This document shows, piece after piece, positions 1 through 18,414 of a stretch of DNA of 64,000 bases; within the stretch, counting starts at the first letter, position 1, and every line of letters begins with the position of its first letter. The position numbers and the translations under genes are program-made. Source of the DNA: Chthoniobacteraceae bacterium (lineage in GTDB: Bacteria > Verrucomicrobiota > Verrucomicrobiia > Chthoniobacterales > Chthoniobacteraceae); assembly GCA_028293625.1 (NCBI GenBank), contig JAQGOL010000030.1, forward strand, positions 248,001 through 312,000, given 5' to 3'. The notes beneath the pieces are model-generated. The model searched no databases. It saw nothing but the letters and a program-made list of their open reading frames with translations, and was not told the DNA's origin.

Positions 1-121
1 ACATCATCGAGCCGATGCCGTAAATGATAAATCCGAGCACCAGCAACCCGCAAACCGCCGCGATAAATGCATCGCGTTTTGTCGTGCTCGGAATAACGAC
101 ACGTTCCACCGGTGGTTTCAT
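1..121 (-). CDS. Hypothetical membrane protein, N-terminal part only
   Basis: Only the first 40 codons lie in the window; the rest is beyond base 1. The peptide starts MKPPVERVVIPSTTKRD and runs into one hydrophobic stretch (about residues 19-38), so it is probably a membrane anchor or a first transmembrane segment. The start ATG at 121 overlaps the stop of the permease gene by four bases (ATGA), a usual sign of translational coupling. Function cannot be told from this fragment. Confidence 0.6.
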   Translation of the reverse strand, partial: MKPPVERVVIPSTTKRDAFIAAVCGLLVLGFIIYGIGSMM

Positions 122-1662
122 GCGTCCCGAAGACTTGACCCCTGCGCCCGTTCCACCGCGGAGCTCTCCTCGGTGACAAAAACCGTTTCGCCTGCGACCA
201 TAAATCGGCGCTTCCAGACATAACGCCGCAGCAGCACTTTGATGGTGGCGGTCATTGGGACAGCCAGAATGGCACCCAGCAAACCGCCCATCAACAAGCT
301 CCAGACAAACACAGAGCCGATGACCGTCATGGGATGCAATCCGACGGAGCCGCCCACGATCTTGGGGGTGACAAAAAGACCGTCGATCTGCTGTACGGCA
401 ATAAAAATGCCGGTCACGATGAGAGGAAACGCCCACCATGGGCTGCCGTGCATAAACCACGGATTCCCATGCAATGCGGCGATGATCACCGCGGGAATCC
501 AGCAAAGGACAATGCCCAGATATGGAATCAGGCCGAGGAAACAAAGGAGCAGGCCGATGAGCAGCCCGAAATCAAGGCCTACGATCACCAATCCAATCCC
601 GGTGGCCGTGCCATTGATCAGGCTCACAAGGAGCTGGCCGCGAAAGAAGGCGATCAGGTAGCCGTTGATCTCCTCCACCGTTGCAACCACCTCATCTTTA
701 AAATGCGACGCGCGCAACGGCACATAATCGCCCCACGATTCCGAAATGTTCCGGCTCTCGATCAGCAAATAATAGAGGTAAATCGGCACGATCACCATGC
801 TCAGCAGAAAGCCGAATACGCCAAGAAATCCGCCTACGCTGGTTCTGACAAAATTCCACGTGTTCCGGATGAGCGTGGATAAGAGCGTATCAAGCCGGTC
901 CCCCTGGAAAAAATGGGTGATATCAAAAGCCTGATCAGGTTCGGCGCTCTCGCCCGCAGCCGCCAGGACTGGTTTGGGAAGGAAAAAATCCCAAAACGAA
1001 GGGCGCGGCGGGTTGACGATAACCTGGGTTGTCACCGGCACTTTGGCGGATGGCGTCACGCTGGAGATCACCGAGTCAGGCGCCGGAGCCGGCTCTGCGG
1101 GTTTCATTTCCGGTGCCATATCCTCGGAAGGAAGGTTCGGCGCAGGCGTGGCAGTTTTTAAGTCCGGCGGAGTGCGAAAAATCGGAAAATTATATTTCTC
1201 CTGCATCTCCTTGGTGAACTGCGTGGCAACCTGGCGTGCCTGTTCAATCAATTTGGGCAGTTTATGGGCAAACTGCGAGCTTTCCGCGGAAGCCGCCGGC
1301 ACCAGCCAGACCAGGATCCCCGCGAAAAAAATGGTGACAGCGGCAAACACACAGAGCACGGCCCTGTGCCGGTCGGTGCTCCATGCCACAAACCTGCCGA
1401 TGGCCGGATGCAGGCGCTTATTTTCCCTGCACCACCGGGCGGCTCGCTGACCCCAGGAAACGAGCCGGCTGACCACGGGATCGAGCAGATAAGCCATCAC
1501 TCCCGCCACGGCAAACGGGATCAGGATCGGCTGCATAAAGCCAAGCACCTGCGAAGTAAGCCAAATGAGGCCTACTGAGACAGCGCCAATCGCGACCACC
1601 GAGAGGGTCGACAAGGCGCCCCAAATGGTTTTCTGCTGCCATTCGGTGGGGTATTCGCTCAT
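118..1662 (-). CDS. AI-2E family (PerM/YdiK-like) transporter
   Basis: A 514-residue polytopic inner-membrane protein. It has hydrophobic pairs near the N terminus (about 15-60 and 100-125) and a block of helices from about 275 to the C terminus. The C-terminal half has the family look: a long GxxxG-rich stretch (GLVIVGLDFGLLIGLLLCFL), PYLGI, and a VGLHPM element near the last helices. Family members are named after AI-2 export, but some export other small molecules or act in ion antiport, so the substrate is open. An Ala/Pro-rich insert at about 165-240 makes it longer than the usual 350-400 residues. The start at 1662 is the only good one. The gene is translationally coupled to the membrane protein downstream (ATGA at 118-121). 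Confidence 0.85.
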   Translation of the reverse strand: MSEYPTEWQQKTIWGALSTLSVVAIGAVSVGLIWLTSQVLGFMQPILIPFAVAGVMAYLLDPVVSRLVSWGQRAARWCRENKRLHPAIGRFVAWSTDRHRAVLCVFAAVTIFFAGILVWLVPAASAESSQFAHKLPKLIEQARQVATQFTKEMQEKYNFPIFRTPPDLKTATPAPNLPSEDMAPEMKPAEPAPAPDSVISSVTPSAKVPVTTQVIVNPPRPSFWDFFLPKPVLAAAGESAEPDQAFDITHFFQGDRLDTLLSTLIRNTWNFVRTSVGGFLGVFGFLLSMVIVPIYLYYLLIESRNISESWGDYVPLRASHFKDEVVATVEEINGYLIAFFRGQLLVSLINGTATGIGLVIVGLDFGLLIGLLLCFLGLIPYLGIVLCWIPAVIIAALHGNPWFMHGSPWWAFPLIVTGIFIAVQQIDGLFVTPKIVGGSVGLHPMTVIGSVFVWSLLMGGLLGAILAVPMTATIKVLLRRYVWKRRFMVAGETVFVTEESSAVERAQGSSLRDA

Positions 1663-1770
1663 CGTACGGTCTCTTTAAGCATTGAAGCGGGAGGAATGAA
1701 ACAAGGATCTCTTTACAAACTTGCAACCTTCCGAATCGGGCCCGCAGCGCTAAAGCCGCCTCACTGCCGG

Positions 1771-3135
1771 TTACATGTGAGCGATGATGTTATCACCAAA
1801 TTCCGAGCACTTGATCTCGGTGCCACCTTCCATCTGGCGGGCGAAATCGTATGTGACACGCTTGCTGCCAATGGCGCCATTAAGACCCTTAAGAATGAGG
1901 TCGGCCGCTTCGTTCCATCCCATATAACGAAGCATCATTTCGCCGCTCAAAACCACTGAGCCCGGATTGACCACGTCTTTATTGGCATACTTCGGCGCGG
2001 TGCCATGCGTCGCTTCAAAGATCGCGTGACCGGTGATGTAATTGATGTTTCCACCGGGCGCGATGCCGATGCCGCCCACCTGCGCGGCCAATGCGTCGGA
2101 AAGATAATCGCCATTGAGATTGAGCGTGGCAATGACCTCAAAATCGGTGGGACGTGTGAGCACCTGCTGAAGCGTGATGTCCGCGATCGAATCCTTGATC
2201 AGGATACGGCCCGCCTCCAGAGCCGCTTTTTGCTCTTCATTCGCGGCGCCTTCACCCTGCTCCTTCTTGGTGCGCTCCCATTGCGCCCAGGTATAAACTT
2301 TGTCGCCGAAAATCCGCTCCGCAGCGCTATACCCCCAATCACGGAAAGCGCCCTCGGTGTATTTCATGATGTTGCCCTTATGCACGATCGTGACCGATTT
2401 GCGTTTCTCGGTGATGGCATATTCAATGGCCGCTTTGATCAGGCGGATGGTTCCAACCTGCGAGACAGGCTTGATCCCGATTCCAACCGACACAGGGATT
2501 CCGCCACCCGTGTTGTGCTCGGGCGACGCCAGCTTCATGTATCCTGCAATAGCGTCGGAGGTGCCGAACCGGATTTTTTTGAAATCATTGGGAAATTCCG
2601 TGGCGATAAAATCGAGGATGCGCGCCGACTCCGGCGAGCCGCCTGCAAATTCGATCCCGGCATAAATGTCCTCGGTGTTTTCGCGAAAAATCACCATATC
2701 GACCAGTTCAGGACGTTTAACCGGCGAAGGCACGCCCTTGAAGTATTGCACCGGACGCAGGCAAACGTAGAGATCGAGCATTTGGCGGAGCGCCACGTTC
2801 AGCGAGCGGATGCCTCCACCGATCGGAGTGGTCAGCGGTCCCTTGATTCCAACCAGGTATTCCTTGAATGCTTCCACCGTGTCGTCCGGAAGCCAGTTGT
2901 CGAACTGGTTTTTGGCCAATTCACCCGCGAACACTTCAAACCATGCGATCTTGCGGGCACCGCCGTAAGCTTTTTCAACCGCTGCATCAAACACACGCAC
3001 ACTGGCGGCCCAAATATCGGGACCTGTGCCATCGCCGCGGATGAACGGAATGACGGGATTGGCTGGAACGGTGAGCTTGCCTTTTGAGATGGAGATTTTC
3101 TCGCCGGCGGGCGGGGTGCAGGTGGTGTAAGCCAT
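1771..3135 (-). CDS. icd: Isocitrate dehydrogenase [NADP+]
   Basis: Oxidatively decarboxylates isocitrate to 2-oxoglutarate in the TCA cycle; cytosolic homodimer. The 454-residue protein matches the bacterial Icd type along its length: [13 protein letters not shown] near residue 30, the substrate-binding loop [13 protein letters not shown] with Ser111 in the place of the E. coli Ser113 phosphorylation site, [12 protein letters not shown], and the late NADP-binding part with [10 protein letters not shown]. It is about 40 residues longer than E. coli Icd (416), partly through an insert around residues 285-310 rich in Glu, Ala and Lys. It stands alone, followed on the same strand by the permease gene 108 bases further on. 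Confidence 0.95.
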
Positions 3136-3317
3136 GGTGTTAAAGAGAGGAAAAGGCGCGGATTAAAACAGAGCCGCCCCGCCCGGTCTAGTGGCAATGC
3201 CCGCAAGAAAGCGCTTCCTTTTTCCCATGGCGATGTCGTCGCGTGTCCCGATCCCGGCGACCGGCTTTACGACCCTTGGCACCTCGACAATGGCGCATAA
3301 CGTCTTACCTCTGGCGG

Positions 3318-4520
3318 ATGCCGCTGCAACCACCTCTGCTTTATGATCCGTCTAATCCCGCTTTTCCGGCGCACGCGCACGAGGTGTATGACCGGTTGCG
3401 CGAAGAGGAGCCATTCCATTGGGCATCACGGACGCAAGAGTGGGTGGTTACCAAACATGCGGACGTAAAGGCGGTCATAAAGCACCCTTCACTTAAACCG
3501 CCCAACGTGATGGCGTATCTCGAGGGCGTTGCCAGGCACGCGGCTGTGGAGATTCCCGCGATGCGCCTTCTTTGTCAGGAAGCACTCATTTTCCAGTCCG
3601 GGCCCGGCCACGCTCAGGCACGGCGCTTTATGGCGCGGATCCTCAATTATCGGCCTTTATCGGAGTGTGCGCCAATAATGGAGGAAATCATCGGACGACA
3701 AATCAAGGCACTTCTGGATGCCGGAGGCGGCGATCTCATCGTCGATTTCGGCCGCGCAATCGGTTGGCAGTTCATGGGACGATTGCTTGGAGTGCCCGCG
3801 GAGGAAATGGAATTCCTGGCCGATTGCGCGGAAGGGATTCTGCTCATCCTGGAACGGCAGATCGAGCCCGATCTCCTGATCGAATTAAATTCAGCGGTCG
3901 CCCAGGCGATCGATTGCCTGACAGCACTCTGCGCCGAGCGCAGGAAGGACCCCCGCAACGACGGGCTTTCCCGCATGCTCGAATTGGCCCCCGAGGAGCC
4001 TGATCGCGTGCTGGCCATGCGAACTTTTTTTCTGTTTGTCGCCGGCCTCGATACCATGGCGACTTTCCTTGGACGCTCCATGCACGCCTTGCTCGAAAAC
4101 CCGGGCGCGCGCGAGCGTTTGAGCGGAGGCGAGGTGGCCGTTGCAGGAGCAATCGAGGAGTTGCTTCGATACACCAGCCCCGTGAGGATGGTGATATGCG
4201 AGGCGGCCCACGACTGCGATGTGAGCGGTCATTTCGTGGCGAGAGGGCAGAAAGTGACGGCGCTGATCGAGGCCGCAAACCGTGACCCGGTGGTGTTTGA
4301 TGCCCCGCATGAACTCCGGCTGGACCGAGACCCGTGTCCTCATCTCGTATTCAGCGAAGGCGTCCACGCTTGTCTCGGAGCGGGCCTGGCAAGATTGCAG
4401 GGGACAATCGCGTTACGGGAGTTTGCGCGGCTGCCGCGGATGCGCCTGGTAGAGAAGCCACGCTTGGCACACAGCGATATAATGAAATTCCTGAAGACGT
4501 TATACGTCTCATTTGAATGA
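3318..4520 (+). CDS. Cytochrome P450
   Basis: Soluble bacterial-type P450 monooxygenase of 400 residues from the ATG at 3318; an in-frame upstream ATG at 3243 would add 25 arginine-rich residues that do not look like P450. Visible motifs: I-helix oxygen-binding AGLDT (242-246), ExxR as EELLR (Glu281/Arg284), and the haem loop FSEGVHACLGAGLAR with the thiolate Cys352. All key residues are present, so it should be active given a ferredoxin and reductase; no redox partner is encoded in the window. The substrate is unknown. It sits just upstream of a PEP-CTERM protein and about 4.1 kb (end to end) from a ketosynthase/ACP-dehydratase pair, which makes a lipid or polyketide substrate possible but unproved. 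Confidence 0.93.
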   Translation: MPLQPPLLYDPSNPAFPAHAHEVYDRLREEEPFHWASRTQEWVVTKHADVKAVIKHPSLKPPNVMAYLEGVARHAAVEIPAMRLLCQEALIFQSGPGHAQARRFMARILNYRPLSECAPIMEEIIGRQIKALLDAGGGDLIVDFGRAIGWQFMGRLLGVPAEEMEFLADCAEGILLILERQIEPDLLIELNSAVAQAIDCLTALCAERRKDPRNDGLSRMLELAPEEPDRVLAMRTFFLFVAGLDTMATFLGRSMHALLENPGARERLSGGEVAVAGAIEELLRYTSPVRMVICEAAHDCDVSGHFVARGQKVTALIEAANRDPVVFDAPHELRLDRDPCPHLVFSEGVHACLGAGLARLQGTIALREFARLPRMRLVEKPRLAHSDIMKFLKTLYVSFE

Positions 4521-4603
4521 GGAAATCGTTGGAATTCAATGGCTTAAGTTGCGTTCTTAAATTACCTCTCAGAGCCGTCCCGCTTAAAAAATCAATCCTC
4601 CCT

Positions 4604-5224
4604 ATGCCCAAGAATTTGAGCCGCAAACTTTCTCTCGCGCCCCGCCTACTCACTCCTCTGACAGCAGGGCTGGCTTTTTCTTCCGGTGGCACCTCATCGG
4701 CGGAGATCGTTTACAATGGTGTGCCAATCCAGAACTCCGGGGGATCGACTACTTTTTCGATCCAGACTGGGAATGAATTCACTTTGGAGGTTTTCACCGG
4801 CTTCACTTTTCAACAGTTTTCCAAGCCTTCGGTTGTGACGCTTTACCCCACGACAGCCACGGGGCTCACGGCCCAAAGTGTTGCGCGAAACAGCACCATC
4901 GGCTCGGGAACGATATTTAACGTAGATTCCTCGAATGGGACGGACGTGGTGGAGGGCCAGAATTACTACGGTTTCGAAATGTTTGAGGGTTCCGAGCCTT
5001 CGCCGCTCTACGGATGGATTAGCGTGACGCACTCTCCTGGGTTTGGAAATGGTTCCGGCACTGTGAACGAATGGGCTTATGAAAATAATGGCGACTCCAT
5101 TAAGGTCGGAGAAGGGGCTCAAGCGGTTCCGGAACCGTCCACGGCCTTGACCGGTGCGTTGCTGGCTGGTTCAGCGGCCGTTTTCCTGCGCCGCCGCCGC
5201 GCGCTTGATGCCATGGCAGCCTAG
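4604..5224 (+). CDS. PEP-CTERM sorting domain protein
   Basis: Secreted protein of 206 residues. It has a basic N terminus (MPKNLSRKL) followed by a hydrophobic signal segment ending near SSAE, a beta-rich middle with many Gly, Thr and Ser, and a classic C-terminal PEP-CTERM anchor: VPEPSTALTGALLAGSAA, then a hydrophobic run and RRRR. Such tails are processed by exosortase (EpsH/XrtA-like) and are common in bacteria that make exopolysaccharide, including Verrucomicrobiota. No exosortase lies in this window. An in-frame ATG at 4517 overlaps the P450 stop (ATGA) but would bury the signal peptide, so 4604 is preferred. Its function beyond surface location is unknown. Confidence 0.85.
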   Translation: MPKNLSRKLSLAPRLLTPLTAGLAFSSGGTSSAEIVYNGVPIQNSGGSTTFSIQTGNEFTLEVFTGFTFQQFSKPSVVTLYPTTATGLTAQSVARNSTIGSGTIFNVDSSNGTDVVEGQNYYGFEMFEGSEPSPLYGWISVTHSPGFGNGSGTVNEWAYENNGDSIKVGEGAQAVPEPSTALTGALLAGSAAVFLRRRRALDAMAA

Positions 5225-5247
5225 GCGGTCTTTAGTCCAGGTACCTT

Positions 5248-7815
5248 TTGCGTTCCAAGATCCTTCTTGTTGGCTGGGACGGGGCGGATTGGCAAATCGC
5301 CCGTCCGCTCATGGGCGCCGGGCAGATGCCCAACCTTTCCGCATTGGTTGAGCGAGGTGTTTGCGGTGAATTAAGCAGTTTCGCCCCGTTTTTGTCGCCC
5401 ATGCTCTGGACGACGATTGCCACCGGGCATCATCCCGACCGGCATGGGGTGCATGGATTTGCTGAAGTCGATCCTTCCACGGGTGAGGCCCGGGCAGTGG
5501 GCACTCAAAGCCGCCAGGTAAAAGCCCTCTGGAATATGGTTTCGCAGCAGGGCGGAACCGCCGGGGTGGTGGGCTGGATGGGCTCCTTTCCCGCGGAAGC
5601 AATCCATGGGGCGTTTGTGTCGGATGCATTTGGCCATGCACCGGCAAATCCGGCTTCGGAATGGCCGGTGACGCCCGGCACGGTTTATCCTTTTGAATTG
5701 GGGCAGGCGCTGGAGGAACTAAGGCTGCGTCCCGAAGAGGTGGACCCGGGCCTGCTCGGGCTTTTTGTCCCTGAACTTCGCACAAAAGGGATGTCGCCGG
5801 ATCCCCATTTGGGTCAGATCATGCAGCGGCTCTCGCAGCTTTACACTCTGCAGAACGCCGCCGTGGCGATCGTTGGCCAGGAGCAACCCGATTTCTTCGC
5901 TGTTTATTTCCACTTTCTCGATCTGATTTCCCACGAGTTTATCAGCTATCACCCGCCGCGACATTCACGGGTTAGCGTCGGGGATTATGAACGCTATAAG
6001 GACGTGGTGAGCGCGGCATACCGGGTGCAGGATGCGTTATTAGGCGATTTGTTAAGGCATTGCGCGCCGGATACGGGTCTTATTCTGGTTTCTGATCACG
6101 GCTTTAAAACCGGCGCAGCAAGGCCGCCACAGGCGCCACGACATGATGCCGGATTGATCGACTGGCATCGGCGTGAGGGCATCGTGGTGGCGCATGGGCC
6201 CGGAATCAAAAAAGGAGAGCGTTTTTGCGGAGTCAGGCCGCATGATATCGCCCCAACGGTCCTGGCTTGGCTGGGAATGCCGCGTGGTGAGGACATGCCG
6301 GGGCGGGTTTTGGAAGAAATGTTTTTAACCGCGCCAAAGGAGATGACAATCCCCTCCTGGCAGGAGCATCCGCCGATTGTTGGTGCGCCCAAAGCGGCTG
6401 CGATCGCACCGGTGGCAGATGAACAGGCTCGCCTGACGCAACGTTTTATCGAGCTTGGCTATCTGGATCCAGCCGTCATGAAGGACTCTCGGGGCGGCGA
6501 CCTTGTGACCAGTGAAAACCAAGCGCATCTGGGCGCAACACTCCGCGACCTGGGCCGCCCGGAGGAGGCGTTGCCTTTGTTGCATGCAGCCGCGCTGGCG
6601 GACCCTGAATCGGCGACGCGCGCGGTAGAACTGACATATTGCCTTCTCGACCTCGGACTTACAGACGAGGCGGAGCGGGCTGCGCAACCTTTTTTTGACC
6701 ACGGAAAAGAACAACCGCGCGCACTTTTGCTGAACGCTCAGATTCTGATCGCGCGCGGCCGCTTTGCGGAAGCCTTGCAAATCATCGAGCGCCTGACAGG
6801 GACGGAGCTGGCGCAGGAATGCGGCGGGTTGCGGCGGCTCATCCTGCTGCGCTCCGGGCGCCATGAGGAAGCGCGGACGGCATTCCTGGCTGAAATCCCA
6901 AAAGCGCCCGGACGAGTGACCCTTTACATGGGACTTGCCCACGCCTGCCTCTGGACCGGACGCTATGCAGAGGCCATGGCGGCTGCGCGAAGTGTCCTGG
7001 CGCTGGATCGCAGCTCGGTTTTTGCGGAGCTCGTGCTGGAGGACGCCGAACGTTGTCAGGCCAAGGGCCGGCCTCCGGACAACACAGGCTGGGATGCGCT
7101 CGCGCAGGCGGCACGACAGCGGGTGGCTTGGCGCGCGGAATTTCAGGAGCGGGAGCGCGCCTTCTTTCAGGCTCGCGAGATCCGCCGCTCATTACGGAAT
7201 GCCGTCGAGACGCGAGTATCAAAGGTTCAACGCGAGCCAATCGTGGTCGTCTCAGGGGTGCCCCGCTCCGGAACCTCGATGATGATGCGCATGCTCGCTC
7301 TCGCAGGTGTGCCGGTTTTTACGGACGGTGTCCGAGTCGCCGATGCGGACAATCCATTAGGTTATTTTGAGTGGGAGCAGATCAAACGCATTGCCACCGA
7401 GCCGCAATTAATGAGCCGGGTGGAAGGCAAGGCGATAAAGGTGGTTTCAGCATTGCTAGCGGACTTGCCTGGCGGATGGAATTACGAACTGATTTTTATG
7501 CGACGCGACGCCGGGGCTATCCTGCGTTCCCAGGAGCGGATGCTTGCCCGGACCGGCCACGACCCATTCCTTTTGAACGTGGGAGAACTGGAACGGCATA
7601 TTGAGGCAACCCTGGAATGGGCACGGGCAAATCCCGAGATACGTCTCCTTGAGATTGATTATGACGCCATGGTTGAACGTCCGCGGGAAGAGATAGCACG
7701 CCTGATTGAGTTTATCGGACATGGACGCATTAAGCGTCCCGCTGGACTTCTTACTGGCGTGCGTGGTGACCTGCGGAACCAGCTTGCCTCCGGGAAAGAG
7801 AGCTCAAATGTCTGA
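5248..7815 (+). CDS. Phosphodiesterase/alkaline phosphatase-superfamily, TPR and sulfotransferase fusion protein
   Basis: Three-part protein of 855 residues starting at a TTG, directly before KILLVGWDGADW. Residues 4-360 are an alkaline phosphatase/type I phosphodiesterase fold: metal ligands Asp11, a Ser/Thr-rich nucleophile region in SPMLWTTIATG (50-60), Asp225 and His229 in FLDLISHEF, Asp283-His284 in VSDHGF, and His299. Residues about 425-610 are TPR-like helical repeats. Residues about 662-855 are a sulfotransferase-like P-loop domain with a PAPS-binding loop GVPRSGTS (670-677) and an Arg/Ser element near 752-761. There is no signal peptide, so it should be cytosolic. The stop overlaps the next gene by eight bases. 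What is hydrolysed and what is sulfated cannot be read from the sequence. Domain calls are confident; the joint role is not. Confidence 0.85.
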   Translation: MRSKILLVGWDGADWQIARPLMGAGQMPNLSALVERGVCGELSSFAPFLSPMLWTTIATGHHPDRHGVHGFAEVDPSTGEARAVGTQSRQVKALWNMVSQQGGTAGVVGWMGSFPAEAIHGAFVSDAFGHAPANPASEWPVTPGTVYPFELGQALEELRLRPEEVDPGLLGLFVPELRTKGMSPDPHLGQIMQRLSQLYTLQNAAVAIVGQEQPDFFAVYFHFLDLISHEFISYHPPRHSRVSVGDYERYKDVVSAAYRVQDALLGDLLRHCAPDTGLILVSDHGFKTGAARPPQAPRHDAGLIDWHRREGIVVAHGPGIKKGERFCGVRPHDIAPTVLAWLGMPRGEDMPGRVLEEMFLTAPKEMTIPSWQEHPPIVGAPKAAAIAPVADEQARLTQRFIELGYLDPAVMKDSRGGDLVTSENQAHLGATLRDLGRPEEALPLLHAAALADPESATRAVELTYCLLDLGLTDEAERAAQPFFDHGKEQPRALLLNAQILIARGRFAEALQIIERLTGTELAQECGGLRRLILLRSGRHEEARTAFLAEIPKAPGRVTLYMGLAHACLWTGRYAEAMAAARSVLALDRSSVFAELVLEDAERCQAKGRPPDNTGWDALAQAARQRVAWRAEFQERERAFFQAREIRRSLRNAVETRVSKVQREPIVVVSGVPRSGTSMMMRMLALAGVPVFTDGVRVADADNPLGYFEWEQIKRIATEPQLMSRVEGKAIKVVSALLADLPGGWNYELIFMRRDAGAILRSQERMLARTGHDPFLLNVGELERHIEATLEWARANPEIRLLEIDYDAMVERPREEIARLIEFIGHGRIKRPAGLLTGVRGDLRNQLASGKESSNV

Positions 7816-8674
7816 GCTGAGCGTAAACTGGATGGTGCGTCCTCCATGGCCCGACGAAACATACCGTCTGGCACATCACTTCACGGTGCAATTCGCTGAA
7901 GAGCGCGGCAACTGGCACCGCGTAATCGAGGCAGCTGACCCGCAGAGGATTGTTGGTTTTGCCGCCCTGCAGGAGCTCAATAGGCCGGCGGAGTTGAGGT
8001 TGCTCTGGGAGATTCGCCTTGAATGGCAGGCGCATGCAGCGACCGAGGCGCTGCTCGATTTGGCGCTCAAGCAGGCGCGCGACATGGGGGCCAGAACGGT
8101 GGTAACCAATGCGGTGCCCGAGGCGACTTTGGCGCAGCTTGCGGTGCAGCGTGGTTTTAAGGAAATCTCACGTCAGGAAGTATGGAGCATCCCGGTGGCA
8201 CCCACGCTATCGCTGCTTGAGGAACGAGGCGGGCCACTGCTTGCGCGTTCCCCGGTGGTTGTATCGCCTCTGGTCCAGTCCAACCTTGAGCAGGTTCGGA
8301 AAATCTGCGCCAACGCGCATTTGCTGACGCCGGAAAGTGTAAGACCGCGCACCCCCGGCATTCCGGCCGGCTTTGATCCCGGGCTATCTTTTTGTGCGGG
8401 CGATCTGGCAAATCCGGGAATCGTGCTGCTGGCCCGGGAGCATTTCGGAAAAGCTTACCTTGAAGTGATCGCGCGCAACCCCGAGGCGGTCGATTTTCCC
8501 CATACCGGAGTAATTGCGCTCATGAGGGCGTTTTACAGGGCCGTCGCGGAATTGGGTCTGGAAGAGGTGACTTGCGCAATCACTTCGGGAAACAACTTCG
8601 GATTGGTGCCTCTGACCCGCCGTGCCGGGGCGCGATGCACGGAAGCGGTGGCGTCCTTCAGGATTGACCTGTAG
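7808..8674 (+). CDS. Tandem GNAT-like acetyltransferase
   Basis: A 288-residue protein whose ATG at 7808 overlaps the end of the phosphodiesterase-sulfotransferase gene by eight bases, so the two are probably co-translated. Residues 1-130 look like a GNAT fold: a central strand IVGFAALQE, the helix region LDLALKQARDMGARTVV, and a C-terminal AVQRGFKEI, which matches the usual GF end of the fold. Residues about 145-288 repeat the pattern (GIVLLAREHFGKAYLEVIA, then GLVPLTRRAGARCTE), suggesting two GNAT modules. The acetyl-CoA loop is poorly conserved in both, so activity is uncertain. It overlaps the convergent ketosynthase gene by 17 bases. Confidence 0.6.
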   Translation: MSELSVNWMVRPPWPDETYRLAHHFTVQFAEERGNWHRVIEAADPQRIVGFAALQELNRPAELRLLWEIRLEWQAHAATEALLDLALKQARDMGARTVVTNAVPEATLAQLAVQRGFKEISRQEVWSIPVAPTLSLLEERGGPLLARSPVVVSPLVQSNLEQVRKICANAHLLTPESVRPRTPGIPAGFDPGLSFCAGDLANPGIVLLAREHFGKAYLEVIARNPEAVDFPHTGVIALMRAFYRAVAELGLEEVTCAITSGNNFGLVPLTRRAGARCTEAVASFRIDL

Positions 8675-9938
8675 AGGCATCTTCCCATCGGCGGAAAATC
8701 AGGCTCACATTGGTGCCTCCAAAACCGCTGGAGTTGCTAAGCGCTATTTTTGGAATGTCGGCGACAGGCTTGGTGACCACAGGGATCTGATCGCACTGCG
8801 GGTCCAATTCAGTGATGTTCGCGGAGACCGGAATAAATTTTCCCTCCAGCGCGAGGCAGCAAAATGCCGCCTCCATCGCGCCGGCCAGCGAGAGACCATG
8901 CCCCGTCAGGCTTTTCGTGCTGCTGACAAAAGGCACTTTTTGATCGCGGAAACTTTTCCGGATCGCCTGGCACTCGCTCGCGTCGCCTGCCTGCGTGGAA
9001 GTAGCGTGGGCATTGATGTAATCGATTTCATTATGCCCCACGCCTGAAGCCACGATCGCGGCATCCATCGCCCGGCTTAGTCCGTCGCCGCCCGGATCAG
9101 GTGCCAGGACGTTGTATCCGTCGGAGGTCTGTCCCCAGCCGAGCATTTCGGCCCCAATCGAGGCACCGCGCCGCAGCGCGTGTTCGAGCTCTTCGAGCAC
9201 CAGCACGCAGGCGCCGCCGGTACCGACAAACCCGTCGCGTTTGCGGTCAAAAGCACGGGGAGCCTTCTCCGGATCGGTCTGCAAACTGAGTGCGCGTACG
9301 CTGGCGAAAGGCAGAATGGAGAACTTGTTACAATCCTCCGCCCCGACGACCAGAACGGTATCCTGTCGTCCCGAGCGGATCAGATCGGCCGCCAATCCAA
9401 GCGCATGCGCGGAGGAGGAGCAGGCACTCGAACAACCGAGCGTTGGGCCTTTGATTTTGAAGCACGCCGCGAGATTAATATAAAGCGAACCAGGGATGCT
9501 GTTTACAATACCCATCGGCTGGCAGCGGACCACGCCGCGCGTCACCATGGTATGAAGATTCTCGTAAGCCATCCACATCGAGCCTCCGGAGGCGGAAATC
9601 AAACCAGTGCGCGGGTTGGATAGCAGATCCGGACTCAGGCGCGCCTCGGCGATGGCCTGCTGCATCGCACAATAGGCATAGAGGGAATTGGGCGCCATAG
9701 GCCGGAGCTGCTCGCGGCTTGGCTCGTATTGGCCCGGATAGCTCCAGTCCTCAAAATAGGCGGTGGGAAACTGAAACCCTTTGACCGTGCCCGCGAGTTT
9801 TACGGGGATATCGCTACTGGCAAATTCAGAGAAAAGCTCCACGCCTGTGCGGCATTCGCGCAAACTGCTCAAGACCTGTGCCCGGCTGTTGCCAATGCTT
9901 GTAATGAACCCCAACCCCGTCACGACAACGCGCTTCAT
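8658..9938 (-). CDS. 3-oxoacyl-[acyl-carrier-protein] synthase (FabF-like ketosynthase)
   Basis: Condensing enzyme of the FabF/KAS II type, 426 residues. The active-site triad is complete: Cys173 in GCSSACSSSAHAL, His311 in NAHATSTQAGD, and His347 in KSLTGHGLSLAG with the usual Lys342. N-terminal VVVTGLGFITSIG and C-terminal SNSSGFGGTN are also typical. It is divergent from housekeeping FabF (the region 50-85 is unusual), and the gene beside it encodes an ACP-dehydratase fusion rather than fabD/fabG/acpP, so a specialised acyl or polyene chain is more likely than bulk fatty acid synthesis. It lies 20 bases downstream of the ACP-dehydratase gene on the same strand. Confidence 0.9.
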   Translation of the reverse strand: MKRVVVTGLGFITSIGNSRAQVLSSLRECRTGVELFSEFASSDIPVKLAGTVKGFQFPTAYFEDWSYPGQYEPSREQLRPMAPNSLYAYCAMQQAIAEARLSPDLLSNPRTGLISASGGSMWMAYENLHTMVTRGVVRCQPMGIVNSIPGSLYINLAACFKIKGPTLGCSSACSSSAHALGLAADLIRSGRQDTVLVVGAEDCNKFSILPFASVRALSLQTDPEKAPRAFDRKRDGFVGTGGACVLVLEELEHALRRGASIGAEMLGWGQTSDGYNVLAPDPGGDGLSRAMDAAIVASGVGHNEIDYINAHATSTQAGDASECQAIRKSFRDQKVPFVSSTKSLTGHGLSLAGAMEAAFCCLALEGKFIPVSANITELDPQCDQIPVVTKPVADIPKIALSNSSGFGGTNVSLIFRRWEDASTGQS

Positions 9939-9958
9939 CGATTCGAGGAAAGGTTCGC

Positions 9959-10807
9959 TTACAGCGAGGCGCTCATGGAATCGGCTTCCGGCAGCACTTC
10001 ATCACCAAATGCCAGAATCAGCCTTTCAATGACGGCCACCTGAGCGTCACCGGAAGTGATCGATCCCCGGAAAATAGCCACCGGTTCGCGCAGCTTAAGC
10101 AAAGTGCCTTCAATGGCCAATTGTTCGCCGGGACGAACCTTGCGATGCACGCGGGCGCCATCCAGGGAACCAAAAAAAACGTGCCGGGAGCTGATGCTTT
10201 TGCCGAGGATCGCCGGCACTTTTTCCAGGATCCAAAGTGTCGCTGCCTGCCCTATTGCTTCAAACAGGATGGAAGCGGGAAAAACCGGTTCATCTTTAAA
10301 ATGCCCCGCGAGAAACGATTCATCGCCCCTCACCAGATAGCGCGCGCGAACACTTGTTTCATCCAGCTCGGCGTCATCAAGAAAAAGAAAAGGATCCTGC
10401 TGGGGCAGAAGCATTGAGATCTGCCCGTGGTCATATTGAGCGGGCGAAAGAGGAGCTTCCTTCAATTTGCTTTGAAGAAAGCGGTTCAGTTCCCCCAGCG
10501 TGCGAATCTCTCTTAGCTCCTCATTGTCGACCCGGAGCTGGAGAACTTCCTCAATGGAAAGCAACACCTCAAGCAACGTCAAAGAATCGAGCCCCAGATC
10601 CTCCACCAAACGGGTCTCATCGCCCGCGGTATCAATCCGGGCGCCGGACGGCTGGAAGCGCGCAATGATTCCGTAGACAATTGAATGTACCCAGGCAACG
10701 TCGCCGGTTTCCCGAAACTGAATGGCCGCCTCTATGGTTTGGGGGCTGCAGCGCTTTAACCCTTCTTTCAGCTCGGCGAGATCTTTTTCGTTAAGGGTGT
10801 TATTCAT
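9959..10807 (-). CDS. Acyl carrier protein fused to FabZ-like hotdog dehydratase
   Basis: A 282-residue two-domain protein. Residues about 35-115 form an acyl carrier domain with the phosphopantetheine serine Ser75 in GLDSLTLLE. Residues about 125-280 form a hotdog 3-hydroxyacyl-ACP dehydratase domain: LPQQDPFLFLDD, catalytic His169 in AGHF and Glu183 in LFEAIGQAA, with the same 14-residue spacing as FabZ. The ATG at 10807 is preferred because a GAGGAG lies about 11 bases upstream; an ATG at 10831 would add eight residues. It is probably co-transcribed with the ketosynthase 20 bases downstream. The covalent ACP-dehydratase link suggests chain intermediates stay tethered between condensation and dehydration; a ketoreductase must come from elsewhere. 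Confidence 0.82.
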   Translation of the reverse strand: MNNTLNEKDLAELKEGLKRCSPQTIEAAIQFRETGDVAWVHSIVYGIIARFQPSGARIDTAGDETRLVEDLGLDSLTLLEVLLSIEEVLQLRVDNEELREIRTLGELNRFLQSKLKEAPLSPAQYDHGQISMLLPQQDPFLFLDDAELDETSVRARYLVRGDESFLAGHFKDEPVFPASILFEAIGQAATLWILEKVPAILGKSISSRHVFFGSLDGARVHRKVRPGEQLAIEGTLLKLREPVAIFRGSITSGDAQVAVIERLILAFGDEVLPEADSMSASL

Positions 10808-10976
10808 TTCGTGGGCATCTCCTCGCGGCAAGGAAACCGTTCCAAAAGCGCTGCGGACAATGCGTCAAGAACTCACTTGGACAAGTTCTTTTCGTAGAAC
10901 CCCGAGCCTATTTAAGCGGGCATCGTTCGCAAATGCCCGGCTGCATTCCCGAACCTTCCGGCACCTCGGTTGCTCG

Positions 10977-12371
10977 CTACGATTTCTCAAAAAACGCCAC
11001 AAGATCGTCGTAAAGACCGGCCTTGTTTGCATACGTGGCGTAACTCCGCGCTGTTTCCAGCCACTCATTCGTTGAAGGCCGGCTCTCTTTGACTGCTTCA
11101 AGAATCGACTTCTGGGTCAGCTTGCCCGGCCGCCCGGTCCGCATCTCTTCGTATATGGCTTTTTCGGAGGCGCGCTCAATCACGGCCCGCAGATCGGCTC
11201 CCGAAAAGCGCTCGGTCTGACGCGCCACCTTGTCGAGATCAACCGCTTCGCTTGGCAGATCGCGCAGGCAAATTCGCAGGATTGCCTTGCGGGCCGCAAG
11301 ATCCGGAGGCGGCACGAAGAGGACCCGGTCAAACCGGCCCGGACGCCGCAACGCACTATCGATGCGCCATGGGGCATTGGTGGCGGCGAGGATCATGACA
11401 TTCTCATTGTGGCCTGAAATACCGTCCATTTCTGTCAGCAACACATTGACCAGCGAAGCGACCGTGGCTCCGGCGTCCGAACGGCTCACGCCGATCGCAT
11501 CGACCTCATCAATAAAAATGACTGTGGGGGAACGGCGCCGGGCAATTTCAAAGATCTCATGGAGGTGCCGTTCGCTTTCGCCGAGCCATTTTGAAAGGAT
11601 GTCGGTAATGGCAATGGAAATAAATGCCGCCTGGCATTCCCCGGCGGTGGCCCGCGCGATGTGGGTTTTGCCGCAGCCGGGCGGGCCGTACATCAGGATT
11701 CCGCCACCCGATTTCTTGTTGAACTTTCGAAAAATCTCCGGGTTTTTGAACGGATAAATGATGTTCATCCGGATCCGTTCGATGACCTCTTCCATGCCGC
11801 CAATATCGTCAAACGTGGTTTGGGGCCGCGCAGGTTCATCCGGCTCAAACAGCGCGTTGAGCGCGGCCTCGGTTTCCTCCGCGGAAACGGCCACGGCATC
11901 CTCCTGTTCGGGTTCGTCAGACGGTTCCGGCAGAGTCGTGCTGAGTTGAAGCCAGCGTTCAAGTTCCCCATCGCTGATCGACTCGTCAATCACGGTGGCC
12001 GCTCCGTATTTTCGACGCGCTTCATCACGCAGACCGCGCCGTTGATAATACCAGGCCATCAAAAGGTAAGCTCGCGCGCATGCCCGATTTTTGGAAAGGA
12101 TTACCTCCAGGGTTTGCAACGCCTCCCCGGGAGCCACTTCGAGTTCAACTTGTGCTTTTAACAAGGCAGCCTCTTCGTTGTCGGGAATGGCCGGTGCGGC
12201 GTGCAAAAGTTGCCCGGCGCGATCGGCTTCGTGGTTTTCCAGATAGTGCCCCATAAGATAAGCACGCGTTTCCCAATCCCCAGGGGTGGCAACGAGCGCT
12301 TTTTCCAAAAGGCTCAAAGGGTTCTGCGGATTTGGAGAAGACTGGGGGTTCTGGGGGTTCTGGGGGTTCAT
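10977..12371 (-). CDS. TPR-containing AAA+ ATPase (Vps4/katanin-like AAA module)
   Basis: Cytosolic 464-residue protein. It starts with a repetitive NPQ-rich tail, then TPR-like helices (about 18-130), an acidic linker (150-180) and one classical AAA module: Walker A GPPGCGKT (229-236), pore loop SKWLGESE (260-267), Walker B VIFIDE (284-289), and the second region of homology ending LRRPGRFD with arginine fingers. The pore loop matches that of Vps4/katanin/spastin proteins, which pull on polymers. There is no protease domain. A C-terminal helix with WLETARSYATYANKAGLYDD closes the protein. Its ATG overlaps the stop of the upstream TPR membrane protein by four bases (ATGA), so the two are probably partners. 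Substrate unknown. Confidence 0.87.
   Translation of the reverse strand: MNPQNPQNPQSSPNPQNPLSLLEKALVATPGDWETRAYLMGHYLENHEADRAGQLLHAAPAIPDNEEAALLKAQVELEVAPGEALQTLEVILSKNRACARAYLLMAWYYQRRGLRDEARRKYGAATVIDESISDGELERWLQLSTTLPEPSDEPEQEDAVAVSAEETEAALNALFEPDEPARPQTTFDDIGGMEEVIERIRMNIIYPFKNPEIFRKFNKKSGGGILMYGPPGCGKTHIARATAGECQAAFISIAITDILSKWLGESERHLHEIFEIARRRSPTVIFIDEVDAIGVSRSDAGATVASLVNVLLTEMDGISGHNENVMILAATNAPWRIDSALRRPGRFDRVLFVPPPDLAARKAILRICLRDLPSEAVDLDKVARQTERFSGADLRAVIERASEKAIYEEMRTGRPGKLTQKSILEAVKESRPSTNEWLETARSYATYANKAGLYDDLVAFFEKS
12343..12369 (-). repeat. Three perfect tandem 9-bp repeats at the AAA gene start
   Basis: The + strand reads tgggggttc three times without change (12343-12351, 12352-12360, 12361-12369). 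On the coding strand this gives the Asn-Pro-Gln repeats at the very start of the AAA protein, and a degenerate fourth copy follows further in. In-frame 9-bp units can vary in copy number by slippage without breaking the reading frame. Confidence 0.9.
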
Positions 12372-13555
12372 GGAAAATTCGGCTTTAAAAGGTGGCGCAG
12401 AGCACGGGCTCGTTTTTTAGCGTGCCGACGATCACGCCACTCTCGGATAAGCCTGTGCAACCCGCGGTAAACGAGAACGGCGAAGATCGCAAGGAGAGCG
12501 ATGCCAAGCACTCTCTCCTGCAATAGCGAGTCAGAAAATCTCCATAGGCTGAACCAGAACCCAACCAGCAACGCGCCGAAAATGGCCAGCCGCGCCTTGA
12601 GCGGCCAGCGCCGGTACTGAAGGAACCCGCCCTGCCGCGCCCCGATTTCTCCCGCTTTCGCGCGCAGATCGCCCACGGTGAGCTGCTCATACACCTTGAT
12701 CATCGGCCAGACGAAAAGGAGCCATAGGATGAGCACGATAAAGAAAAACCGCGCCGCGATGATCCAGACAGGAATGAGCAGCAAGGCGGCCACCCAGCTG
12801 CGCTCCCGGGTCCGCCGCATGAAGAGCGAAAACTTCGCCAGCAGATCCCTCGGCCCGCAGAGAATGCGATAAAACCGGTCGCGCTGTTTGATCGTGACAA
12901 AGAGATTGGAGCGGAAAATCGGATTGGCTGGCTCAAGCGAAAGCGCGAAGCGAAATGACTTCTCCGCGGCGGCATAATCGCGGCTCACATTGAGATAATG
13001 CACGCCGATGTTGTTATGGACGGTGGCATTCTCCGGATCGAGTTCAAGCGCCTGCTGATATTGCCGGAGCTGGCCGTGGGCGCTCGGATTTGCGTCATCG
13101 GGCGCGCACATGGCCAGCAGATTGATGATGCTCGGATCAAGCGGACTCAAACCTCGTGCCTTTTGCGCCCAGGTGGTTGCCGACTTGATGTCGCCCTGCC
13201 GGTAGCACATCAGCGCGAGGTGGTACCAATTGTAGGCGTCATTTGGAGCCAGCGAGATGGCTTGCTGGATGGCAGAGTCCGCTTCCTTAAAGCGTTTCTG
13301 ATCAAACCGCACAATCGACATGAGCCGGTGGGCAAACGCGTTCTCCGGTTCGATCCGCAACACATGGCTGATATGAATATCCGCTTCGGCCTTCCTCTCC
13401 AGATTGATCAACGCCTGGCCCGCCGCAAGATGCGCCCCGCTGTTTTGAGGGTCATTTGCCAGCCACTCGCGGGCGCTTTCCAGTGCGCGATCCCATTGTC
13501 CGCTCTCAATGAACCGGGCCACGAGCATTGAATAGGTCAAATTGGAATTGAGCAT
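12368..13555 (-). CDS. TPR-repeat membrane protein
   Basis: A 395-residue protein from the ATG at 13555 (MLNSNLTYSM); a further ATG upstream at 13630 would add 25 unrelated residues. About the first 210 residues are TPR units (for example GQWDRALESAREWLANDPQN). These are followed by hydrophobic segments (WVAALLLIPVWIIAARFFFI and LILWLLFVWPMI, then two more near 325-375) and a strongly basic C terminus (RDRRHAKKRARALRH). The TPR domain is probably in the cytosol, as there is no signal peptide. It is translationally coupled to the TPR-AAA ATPase downstream, suggesting a membrane-bound scaffold for that ATPase. Confidence 0.75.
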   Translation of the reverse strand: MLNSNLTYSMLVARFIESGQWDRALESAREWLANDPQNSGAHLAAGQALINLERKAEADIHISHVLRIEPENAFAHRLMSIVRFDQKRFKEADSAIQQAISLAPNDAYNWYHLALMCYRQGDIKSATTWAQKARGLSPLDPSIINLLAMCAPDDANPSAHGQLRQYQQALELDPENATVHNNIGVHYLNVSRDYAAAEKSFRFALSLEPANPIFRSNLFVTIKQRDRFYRILCGPRDLLAKFSLFMRRTRERSWVAALLLIPVWIIAARFFFIVLILWLLFVWPMIKVYEQLTVGDLRAKAGEIGARQGGFLQYRRWPLKARLAIFGALLVGFWFSLWRFSDSLLQERVLGIALLAIFAVLVYRGLHRLIREWRDRRHAKKRARALRHLLKPNFP

Positions 13556-13632
13556 GCGGGGCGGATTGGCTCTCCCGGTTCTGCAAGATTCCGTCCGTTG
13601 AGCCAAGATCTTTGAGGTGGATGCCCGCAAGC

Positions 13633-13677
13633 AAAAAACCGAAAAGCCCGGCCCCTCATCTCTGAGGAGCCGGGCTA
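13633..13677 (-). terminator. Intrinsic terminator after the Snf2 helicase gene
   Basis: A strong hairpin: AGCCCGGC (13645-13652) pairs with GCCGGGCT (13669-13676), and an inner CCTCA/TGAGG stem follows a single mismatch, with a 4-base loop. Read on the minus strand it is followed by TTTTCGGTTTTTTG. It lies about 140 bases after the helicase stop and before the TPR membrane gene, so it separates the two transcripts. Confidence 0.75.
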
Positions 13678-13818
13678 TCGCCCCCCGCCCAACACATGCG
13701 CATCAAAACATCGTTGCCCACTTCATTCAATCATGCCGCACCCCGATGAGCACCTCAGTCTGAACTATTTAGAACAGGTTTTGCCGCGATGCTCTGCACT
13801 TCGTTCAGCTCGGGTTTC

Positions 13819-16800
13819 TCACATAATCAGCGCTTCAATATCCGCCGTAGTCAACCCGTCCATCATCGGCTGTTCGCTCTCAATAGTCGCATTGATGATG
13901 TCCCGTTTCTTAGCTTGCAGCGCCAGAATCTTCTCCTCCACGGTGCCACGCGCGATGAGCTTATAAGCTGTCACCACGTTTTTCTGGCCGATGCGATGAG
14001 CACGATCGGTGGCCTGCATTTCAACCGCCGGATTCCACCACGGATCAAAGTGAATCACGGTGTCGGCGGCGGTAAGGTTAAGTCCAACGCCGCCCGCTTT
14101 TAAACTCATCAGGAAGACAGGGACCGTCCCGGTTTGAAACCGGTCGACCACCGCCTGGCGATCCTTGGTGCTGCCGTCCAGGTAACAGAACTCCGTCTCC
14201 GAGGCAGTAAGCTGGTCGCGGATCAAATGGAGCATCGATACAAACTGGCTGAACACGATCACCCGATGGCCGCCATCGAGTGCTTCCTGCAAAAGCTCAT
14301 CAAGGAGTTCAAGTTTGGCCGAGGCTTCTTTTTCATCCACATCGGGCAATCCGAGCAGCCTCAGATCGCAGCACGCCTGGCGCAGCCGCAATAGAGCCGT
14401 CAACATCAGGATGCGCGCCTTGTTTTGATCCTTGGTGGAGGCGAGCTCTGATACCTGGCGCCGCGTCGATTCGAGCAGCTTTTTATATGTTTCCTGCTGG
14501 GCGCCGCTCAGTTCGCAATAGGCCACCTGTTCAATCTTGTCGGGCAGTTCGGGCGCGACCCCTTTTTTGAGCCGGCGCAAAATGAAGGGCTTTAAGCGTT
14601 GCACCAGCCGGCGTTGCTCGGGGCCGCCGGGATCGCTCTGAATGGACTGTTCAAAGCGTTCCTTAAAATCACTCCGGGTTCTCAGGTAACCGGGCATCAG
14701 GAAGTTCATGATCGACCAGATGTCGCGCACCGAGTTTTCCACTGGTGTGCCCGTTAAAACAAACCGGTTTCGCGCCTCGATCGCCTGGGCTGATTGGGCA
14801 TTCTGACTCTCGGGATTCTTGATGTGCTGCGCCTCATCGAGAACCATCACCCCGAACTCAATCCCGCGATATTGATCCACGTCGCGGCGCAACAACGGAT
14901 AGCTGGTGATCACCACATCGGCCTCGGCAATCTGGCCGAAGAGCTCGTGCCGTTTGGCTCCTTGAATCGCCAGGGTCCGCAGTTCCGGGGCAAATCGCGC
15001 CGCCTCGCGCTGCCAATTGAAGATCAGCGACGACGGGCAAACCACCAGGGCACGGCTTTTTGTCGTCCGCAAAAAAGCGAGCATCTGAACCGTTTTGCCC
15101 AAACCCATTTCATCGGCGAGGATTCCGCCCCAGCCGTTTTGCGCAAGAAAATGGAGCCAATAGACGCCTTGTTTTTGGTAAGGCCGGAGCACGTTTTCCA
15201 AATCGCCGAGTGGAATGGCGCTTAGTCGGTCAAGCTGGCGCGGCGCGGTGGCCCAGGTGCGCCATTGGGCGGGGCTTTCAAGAGGAATGCCGCTTTCGGC
15301 AGCCACCCCTTCAAGATACGCCGCGTGCTGACTGCCGATCTGATATTTACCCGGCTCTTTCTGCGTTGGATTGCAGTCATTAAGGACGTGCTGAAATTCA
15401 TCGAGAAGATCGGGGTTAAACACCGCCACTTTGCCGTCGCGCATTCGAACGGAACTGCGGCCTGACTGCAGAAGCCGCTGGATTTCCGCCGAGGTAAAGC
15501 GCTCGCCGCCCGGCGTGGAAAGCTCCACATTGAGCTCAAACCAGTTCTGCCCCGAGCTGGTGCGCACCTCCAGCTTTGGCTCGATCCGGGTCACGTCCCG
15601 GGTCACATGCTGGAATCGCGAGCCGACGGTGACCTCCCATTCCCGCTCCAGACGCGGCAAATCGCGTCCAAAAAACATCAGGATCCCCTGCTCGCCCTTG
15701 AGGACAAATTGTCCCCGCACATCGGGTCCCATAAACCCGCACCGCCGCAACCGCTCGATCGCCCCCTGCTCCAACGGATCGCCTGAGCGATAGCCCGCGC
15801 CCCCAATTGAGACCCGGCTTTCCCCACGCCGGCATTCCAGTTCAGCCGCGAGAAAATTGAGCGATCCTTCGATTTTGAGGATGAAAACCGACCCGTCGGA
15901 ACCACCGCGCGGCGCGGCGGCCGGAATCGGCATTGCTGCGGGAAGCGTGGCCGGATCGATTTCAAAAAAGGACGCGAGTGCTGGCAATTCCCGGGAAAGA
16001 AACTGGGTGGCGGCGTTGGCCGGAATCACAACCTCGCGCAAAAGGATGTCCTGATACGCGGCGGGCAATCCTTTCGCCACCGGGACAAACTCATTGCCCC
16101 GCAGCACCCATGCGTCGGCTCCCGGGGCAAGGAGCAGCTCCGGATTCCCGGGCATTTCTGTCCAAAGCCGGGCCGCGCCATCCTTTGCGCGTTCCACCAT
16201 CAACTTGGGTTGAATTCCGGATTCCGCGATTTTGACCGCCGTATTTTTTCCAAACGTCACTTTGGGATGTCCCGCCAATGCTCCAAGCAAGCTGAGAAAT
16301 TGAGCCCGGGGAAAGAGCGCCATGCCGGGCAGGTCGCCGCCCACCAGCTCGCGCAATTTTTTGATCGCCTTCAAATCGGCGGGGCTGCATCGGAACCGTT
16401 TGGATCGATCGATGGCGTTTAAAAGAATCCGGCGGCCCGCGGCGCCGACTGAAACCTCTGCGCCGACTGTGATGGAATTGCGTTCCCAGGCAGCGGCAAA
16501 ATTCGGTGCCAAAATAATAAAGAGCTCGGCGGGCAGTCCCTCACCTTCCACGCTGAAAATCTCAGGGAGCGCCGGTTTATCCTTGGGAGCAGTTTTCAAC
16601 ACTGGGCTTGATTGAACCGCAACAACCGGGGCCTGACGCGGTTTCAGAACAGCGATGCCGATTGCCAGCGAATGGGCGCAAATGAGGCCGCGCTGCTTCG
16701 AATCGCGGCAGACACAGAGATTTTCCACGTTGCTTTTGGAGATGATCCGCAAGCCGGAGCGCAGTTCGGTTTCGCCCTGTCGAATCCGGCCCTGGAGCAA

Positions 16801-16914: not shown

Positions 16915-17013
16915 GGGAAAAGTGGCGCAAAGCAATCGCTTGCCCGAACGCATCAGGCAAGTCTGCCAACGAAGTTCTAGCCAGAGCGGCGTTCACGCAT
17001 ACACTGCGCGCCC

Positions 17014-17781: not shown

Positions 17782-18078
17782 GCGCTGCGCGCCGCGTGGA
17801 ATGCGGCTTCATTCCGGGCATTCATGGGCGCCGCCTGTTTCTGCCGCTGCACATCCGTCGTGCTGCCGCCCTGGTCGTCATCCTCTTTTTTAACGAGCCG
17901 GACATTCGGTCGATTCAGGATCAATGGATTGAGTGGAACGATGGAAATCGTCCCATTACCAGCCAGTCAAGGCTGCCGGTTTCCGCACGTACAATCTTCC
18001 CAAAAGCGTGCCGTAGAGAGTCCGGATTCACCAGTGAACGGCTTTTTTCAAAAAGATCGAAAATGATGAAGAAACTCA
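17782..18078 (+). other. Gene-free stretch between parA and the tRNA-Asp promoter
   Basis: About 300 bases with only short open frames that lack good codon pattern or known motifs. No parB remnant, repeat or convincing terminator was seen here. Confidence 0.5.
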
Positions 18079-18106
18079 TTGCATAAACAAAGAGCGCTCC
18101 TATACT
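18079..18106 (+). promoter_or_regulatory. Sigma70-type promoter of tRNA-Asp
   Basis: TTGCAT (18079-18084) and TATACT (18101-18106) are separated by 16 bases, close to the vegetative consensus. The predicted start near 18113 is about nine bases before the mature tRNA end. Confidence 0.65.
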
Positions 18107-18121
18107 TCGCGGCTCCTTCAA

Positions 18122-18392: not shown

Positions 18393-18414
18393 GCTCAGCG
18401 GAAGATCGCCCGGA

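Follow-up and report, generated by a model that had tools for sequence, protein, structure and literature searches.

Between positions 3318 and 10807 of a 64,000-nucleotide stretch of a Chthoniobacteraceae genome (contig JAQGOL010000030.1, positions 248,001 to 312,000; the whole stretch is referred to as the window), six genes form two groups that end tail to tail. Four of them, on the + strand, encode in order a cytochrome P450, a PEP-CTERM protein, a fusion of an NPP-type phosphodiesterase (PDE), a tetratricopeptide repeat (TPR) array and a sulfotransferase, and a GNAT-like protein (module A); the other two, on the - strand, encode an acyl carrier protein (ACP) fused to a FabZ-like dehydratase and then a ketosynthase (module B). 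We consider, with a probability of roughly 55%, that module B is a dedicated acyl elongation unit and module A a PEP-CTERM-linked tailoring operon; the odds of this reading and of its rivals are not mutually exclusive. The genes have intact active-site motifs and are spaced as in operons, each module recurs separately in other genomes, and the two recur jointly in one. Open frames and domain profiles (Pfam and NCBIfam, with scores judged against the curated cut-offs) upheld the parts list, the positions and the strands of the six genes that a preliminary description of this DNA had given. Throughout, G000 is the genome that carries the window, and the G and L labels stand for sampled genomes and loci.

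The spacing of the genes suggests two transcription units that converge tail to tail. The frames of the GNAT-like protein and the ketosynthase overlap by 17 bases at their tails, the PDE and GNAT frames overlap by 8 bases (with the ATG at 7808), and 20 bases separate the ketosynthase from the ACP-dehydratase; the starts at 3318, 5401, 7808 and 10807 were set by a codon-scored gene caller. Within each module the genes would be co-transcribed. A scan of the locus for promoters and terminators gave no signal higher than that of shuffled sequence.

The fusion gene of module A (positions 5248 to 7815, + strand, 855 aa from a TTG start, with a possible ATG at 5401) passes the Pfam cut-offs in three parts, a phosphodiesterase (PF01663, 98.2 bits, cut-off 23), a sulfotransferase (PF13469, 40.9 bits, cut-off 27) and, as an array between these two enzyme parts, TPRs (PF14559, 53.2 bits, cut-off 25). 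The two enzyme domains had been recognised in the preliminary description and stand; the TPR part was absent from it. The fold model of the fusion (mean pLDDT 82.9) has Xac NPP as its best match (E 9.9e-10, TM by target 0.52), followed by ENPP1/3 and autotaxin. Across 13 homologues, the loop PRSGTS of the sulfotransferase, which binds 3'-phosphoadenosine 5'-phosphosulfate (PAPS), is invariant, and so are D11, S50, D225, H229, D283, H284 and H307, which we take to be the likely metal site and nucleophile from a manual alignment to NPP motifs. The window enzyme shares with the NPP/ENPP enzymes the PF01663 domain, the fold and probably this set of metal-site residues, but it is fused to TPRs and a sulfotransferase, shows no signal peptide by eye and, on the same manual alignment, presumably has a serine at the nucleophile position, where NPPs have a threonine. 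In sequence searches of solved structures, the phosphodiesterase part had no match at 0.001 and the sulfotransferase part matched only sulfotransferases 1A1 and a phenol sulfotransferase (0.009-0.075); when the entire fusion served as the profile, TPR proteins came out on top. PDE-sulfotransferase genes are frequent in the order, with matches at 1e-60 in 24 of 147 genomes, G000 among them.

Verrucomicrobiota have many PEP-CTERM proteins, most of which have no known function. The predicted exported protein encoded just before the fusion (positions 4604 to 5224, + strand; the ATG at 4604 reads MPKNLSRKL and the frame is open from the ATG at 4517) shares with PEP-CTERM/exosortase surface proteins the VPEP motif (here VPEPST), a membrane-like stretch and an arginine tail (RRRR), all recognised by eye. 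It differs from such proteins generally in being a particular family (YGW ... AYE..G..I..G, also by eye), and its homologue at locus L223 scores 29.3 bits with PF07589. In tblastn searches, whose counts are lower bounds, homologues appeared at 10 of 20 PDE loci (13 intervals in 262 kb) and, in a set of 8 of the 11 GNAT loci, at five (7 intervals in 141 kb), and none was found in the 1.63 Mb of 100 module B loci that served as controls. Four of the query proteins derive from PDE loci; when those four loci are left out, 6 of 16 still carry a homologue. These counts suggest that the PEP-CTERM family of the window is tied to the PDE-TPR-sulfotransferase gene.

The last gene of module A (positions 7808 to 8674, + strand; VRPPWPDE family) scores 17.3 bits with PF00583, under the cut-off of 20.7, so that the name GNAT is tentative and we speak of a GNAT-like protein only. 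It is rare: a single-sequence search of 157 relatives at 1e-8 found its own genome alone, and a three-row profile reached 4 of 213 genomes of the order and 13 of 384 of the class. At eight of 11 newly read GNAT loci a phosphodiesterase or sulfotransferase sequence lies adjacent, one gene off (L254) or in the same frame (L258); among these eight, L252 has the sulfotransferase part only and L259 a weak match. The seeds of the profile (the window, G056 and G058) have such sequences too, but they chose the profile and stand outside the 11. Module A recurs on its own in relatives.

The P450 (positions 3318 to 4520, + strand; soluble bacterial type, PF00067 56.8 bits, cut-off 22.8) has an intact heme-binding cysteine loop, FSEGVHACLG, and also AGLDT and ELLR. 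Its best NCBIfam match is a heme-less P450 glycosyltransferase activator (147 bits against 343), a reading that we rejected since the cysteine loop is intact. At 1e-20, P450 matches occur in 16 of 157 relatives including its own genome, all others at 30% identity or less. The closest among 384 sampled class genomes (39%) is that of G178, in which P450, sulfotransferase and GNAT follow in the same order as in the window. This homologue (L252:11083-12132, beside the sulfotransferase and GNAT genes) stops short of the heme cysteine, which makes its activity doubtful, and no heme loop was found downstream of it in the three frames of that strand, which weakens the case for G178 as a complete counterpart of module A. 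The gene lists of relatives come from the codon-scored caller; in contigs of low G+C it overlooks genes or calls them too short.

The ketosynthase of module B (positions 8658 to 9938, - strand) is a beta-ketoacyl-ACP synthase (KAS) of FabB (KAS I)-like type. Its Cys-His-His triad had been described as intact, and C173, H311 and H347 are indeed present and invariant in six homologues. When a profile of six relatives was searched against solved structures, the top 17 matches (322-357 bits) were 14 named KAS I and 3 generic ones, and the first named KAS II came at 279.5 bits. The window enzyme shares with FabB the catalytic triad, a full-length alignment and these best structure matches, but it stays under the FabB equivalog cut-off (359.6 bits against 630) and is encoded with an ACP-dehydratase fusion; nor does it reach the cut-off of the FabF model TIGR03150 (357 bits against 493.75). 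At E 0.001 the FabF model finds seven hits in G000 (one partial, one inside a 2436-residue frame), and the canonical fabF gene of this genome, at C31:64564, reaches 637 bits, above the cut-off. The ketosynthase is not, therefore, the only FabF of its genome, an eventuality raised in the preliminary description, and a housekeeping role on that ground is ruled out. Other ketosynthases of G000 include the domain at C14:68904-70019, in the 2436-residue open frame, and an adjacent pair of ketosynthase-like genes at C39:116118-117884. As had been claimed, housekeeping fabD, fabG and acpP were not found among the larger frames of positions 1-20000 of the window (eight proteins by profile, the others by eye).

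In the other protein of module B (positions 9959 to 10807, - strand), an ACP with an N-terminal helical extension is fused to a FabZ-like hotdog dehydratase, both parts above their cut-offs (PF00550 29.1 bits, cut-off 20.8; PF07977 48.5 bits). The phosphopantetheine serine motif of the ACP (D74 S75 L76, DSL) and the catalytic His and Glu of the dehydratase (H169, E183) are invariant in six homologues. The extension of about 35 residues is also conserved, with L13, L17, K18, R19, C20, P22, T24, E26, A27, A28, F31, R32 and D36 invariant, and it is helical in the fold model (six rows, pLDDT 81.0, pTM 0.56), whose best fold match is FabZ. The dehydratase shares with FabZ the hotdog fold and the active-site His and Glu, and its best matches among solved sequences are FabZ enzymes, with anammox and E. 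coli FabZ (about 3e-20) among them. It differs in sitting behind an ACP with conserved N-terminal helices of its own and in scoring under the FabZ cut-offs (69.4 against 113 and 59.1 against 155.15). Upstream of this gene, on the same strand, positions 10977-13558 of the window encode a TPR-AAA ATPase, whose top NCBIfam match is CDC48 (under its cut-off), and a TPR protein.

An ACP-dehydratase profile run over genome contigs found 87 relatives, of which 80 loci were kept, 12 of them matching the dehydratase part only; by their record titles nearly all are Verrucomicrobiota, apart from single loci titled Betaproteobacteria, PVC group and just bacterium. Neighbours were counted from tblastn searches with one query protein each (E 1e-8), and the counts are lower bounds since some contigs end close by. 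A ketosynthase stands beside the ACP-dehydratase at 65 of the 80 loci; the other counts are 35 for glycosyltransferase GT6, 25 for GT9, 19 for a short-chain dehydrogenase/reductase (SDR), 7 for GT19 and 6 for a class III aminotransferase. The GT9 resembles monogalactosyldiacylglycerol (MGDG) and diglucosyl-diacylglycerol synthases (UgtP/MGDG-synthase-like), and the SDR has a weak match to 3-ketodihydrosphingosine reductase (KdsR, 120 bits against a cut-off of 400). A family with a serine-palmitoyltransferase-like member at L063 (398 bits against 640) is present at eleven loci, and eight have in common another, whose L124 member is like a 3-deoxy-D-manno-octulosonic acid (Kdo, lipid A) transferase (303 bits against 438) and lies about 2.3 kb from the dehydratase start. 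Judging from these genes, the predicted setting of module B is one of envelope lipids.

Several of these loci have a layout of their own. A larger conserved cluster (L043-L047, L172, L173) contains the ACP-dehydratase, the ketosynthase, an SDR and several glycosyltransferases; most of its loci add an SCP2-like protein and a class III aminotransferase. In L124-L137 (e.g. L124:6297-9380), mostly Opitutales contigs, a dehydratase without a matched ACP part is followed by a ketosynthase, after which, at eight loci, comes the family of the Kdo-transferase-like L124 member. Serine-palmitoyltransferase-like enzymes are found near module B at L063:13550-14707, L173:469-1704 and others. Bacterial sphingolipid-type loci comprise a serine palmitoyltransferase, an ACP and a ketosphinganine reductase. 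Some module B loci share with them the serine-palmitoyltransferase-like enzyme and the SDR with its KdsR match, but both matches are under the curated cut-offs and such genes are absent beside the window locus.

In the mechanism that we infer, substrates and order of steps included, the fused ACP of module B would hold the growing chain and the ketosynthase would join it to malonyl-ACP by condensation; reduction would fall to a general reductase (FabG or other) and dehydration to the FabZ-like domain. The outcome would be a special acyl chain, longer, 2-enoyl or unsaturated, that goes into an envelope lipid. We regard a dedicated, non-standard acyl chain as the likely product of module B. In module A, the TPR arm would bind a partner or substrate, the sulfotransferase domain would move sulfate from PAPS, the NPP domain would cut a phosphodiester or nucleotide, the GNAT-like protein would attach an acyl group and the P450 would provide a hydroxyl. 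Module B might even feed acyl-ACP to the P450 or the GNAT-like protein of module A, an exchange that we put forward tentatively and on balance doubt. Literature term searches brought up nothing on either module in titles and abstract openings.

A number of observations weigh against the division into an elongation unit and a tailoring operon as we have drawn it. The PEP-CTERM protein scores 19.8 bits with PF07589, just below the cut-off of 20.7, and the GNAT-like protein misses its own Pfam cut-off (see above). Three of the 11 GNAT loci (L248, L260, L261) have no match to the PDE or the sulfotransferase. The two modules are on opposite strands, and the P450 (three queries), PEP-CTERM, PDE-sulfotransferase and GNAT genes were found at none of the 80 module B loci (tblastn, 1e-8). 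Joint conservation of the two groups in relatives, on which the preliminary description had made its idea depend, is not supported, and a six-gene unit is rejected as a general rule, also in view of the missing fusion in the family of the window (see below). Eight sampled class genomes have both a GNAT-type and a ketosynthase match, and the two lie within 5 kb of each other only in G000 and G056; in the other six no ketosynthase match lies within 5 kb of the GNAT, with G381 not fully judgeable (its GNAT is 2 kb from a contig end). Adjacency cannot be judged in G058, the third GNAT seed, which is at a contig end. Finally, no SDR or GT9 closely related to these partners was found in G000 (best 31% over 227 aa and E 4.8e-6; GT6 and GT19 were not searched), so that module B may be a remnant.

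The joint occurrence in G056, of another family in the same order, bears on the idea of a single pathway, which the preliminary description had offered as inference only. In such a pathway acyl-ACP from module B would be hydroxylated by the P450, sulfated by the sulfotransferase and passed on by the GNAT to the PEP-CTERM protein or a lipid. Within 7.6 kb G056 encodes a PDE-sulfotransferase (36% identity to that of the window over 894 columns), an exported-looking protein, a GNAT (27% over 132), a P450, an ACP and a ketosynthase (56%). Most functions recur, but the P450 is of another group (28% over 172 aa to that of the window, 37-38% to that of G010), the ACP is unfused and without dehydratase, the gene order differs, and the ketosynthase falls in another tree branch, so that the locus reads as a second, independent assembly; the join between the modules may have formed twice. 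The exported-looking protein has no similarity to the PEP-CTERM protein of the window and no Pfam match, and resembles proteins beside PDE genes elsewhere (27-33% over 55-150 aa). Again to the detriment of our reading are the P450 group, the unfused ACP and this last protein. G046 (L166, compared with L056) keeps the ketosynthase and two outer neighbours of G056 (75% and 85%) and is without the ACP, P450, GNAT and PDE genes that stand between them there. With G000 left out, 0.023 GNAT-ketosynthase adjacencies are expected by chance in the other seven genomes, and the case of G056 is a hint of something beyond chance, calculated after the fact for one event with rounded genome sizes. A P450, an ACP and a ketosynthase also occur together in G010, at a contig end, and the matches of the P450 include, at rank 8 of 297, BioI, which acts on acyl-ACP but is not especially close. 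Set against the opposite strands, the empty count at the 80 ACP-dehydratase loci and the single genome that supports it, one pathway is possible and, we think, rather improbable.

Module B could instead be the unsaturated-fatty-acid pair of the cell. FabA/FabB and FabN/FabO are unsaturated-fatty-acid sets, and a ketosynthase nearest to KAS I that adjoins a FabZ-like dehydratase would suit a pair of either kind. The distribution is too patchy for this to be other than unlikely: ketosynthase matches at 1e-80 were found in 88 of 384 class genomes, the best ones in other families, and the full fusion in G000 plus 5 of 76 other genomes, all five in family f4; a search of 39 further genomes from the family of G000 found no copy of it. 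The glycosyltransferases and other envelope-lipid-type genes beside it in relatives argue in the same direction.

The same patchiness favours another possibility, that module B is what remains of a bigger lipid cluster gained by horizontal transfer; the SDR and GT9, of which G000 has no close relatives, would have been lost, and the module would now be without function here. In a ketosynthase tree of 93 rows, built without any FabB and flagged by the program for long branches at its far side, the window enzyme belongs to an 87-row clade that a long branch sets apart from the other included ketosynthases of G000. It groups with L063 and L064, from palsa and bog metagenome-assembled genomes (support 96/85), inside a group of nine rows (100/97), and of the eight such enzymes that its own family contributes to the tree, seven are in another branch. 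Transfer or differential loss would either of them explain why its nearest relatives lie outside the family. Base composition was dropped as a mark of recent transfer and gives no sign of it: per kb, the locus has a G+C of 0.54-0.61, which differs little from the 0.525-0.60 found over the remainder of the first 20 kb. A module without function seems quite improbable to us: both frames and their active-site motifs are intact, the spacing has been kept, and Pelagicoccus mobilis and strain DG1235 also have the short form, with only a divergently placed glycosyltransferase beside it.

More speculatively still, module A could be an unrecognised surface-protein modification system, joined here and in G056 to a private acyl-ACP supply. 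The cytoplasmic NPP-TPR-sulfotransferase and the GNAT, sometimes with the P450, would sulfate or acylate the dedicated PEP-CTERM protein before its export, for example at the conserved AYE tyrosine; the ketosynthase and the ACP would be the private supply, and the exported protein or its anchor would carry a hydroxylated, sulfated acyl group. We give this version little credence as a whole.

An aryl polyene-like or polyketide cluster was rejected on gene content and tree: clusters of this look, with apparently two ACPs, a dehydratase and several ketosynthases, do exist in the same family (L049-L052), but their related ketosynthase is in another branch, and the window locus has one ketosynthase, with no KS/CLF (ketosynthase/chain-length factor) pair and no dedicated ketoreductase or acyltransferase among its genes. 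The preliminary description had proposed a non-standard lipid or polyene product; the lipid is a reasonable guess for the ketosynthase side, with its lipid-type neighbours in relatives, and the polyene is not indicated.

With an elongation unit and a PEP-CTERM-linked operon as the preferred reading, each module has its own meaning. The ACP-dehydratase/FabB-like pair occurs across the phylum, often by glycolipid-type genes, and points to an uncharacterised envelope acyl chain that would be testable in cultured strains. The module of PEP-CTERM protein, PDE-TPR-sulfotransferase and GNAT is the more interesting part and the one most worth pursuing, since in it one family of PEP-CTERM proteins goes together with a phosphodiesterase, a sulfotransferase and an acyltransferase-like protein, and it offers a testable entry to a possible modification of PEP-CTERM proteins.

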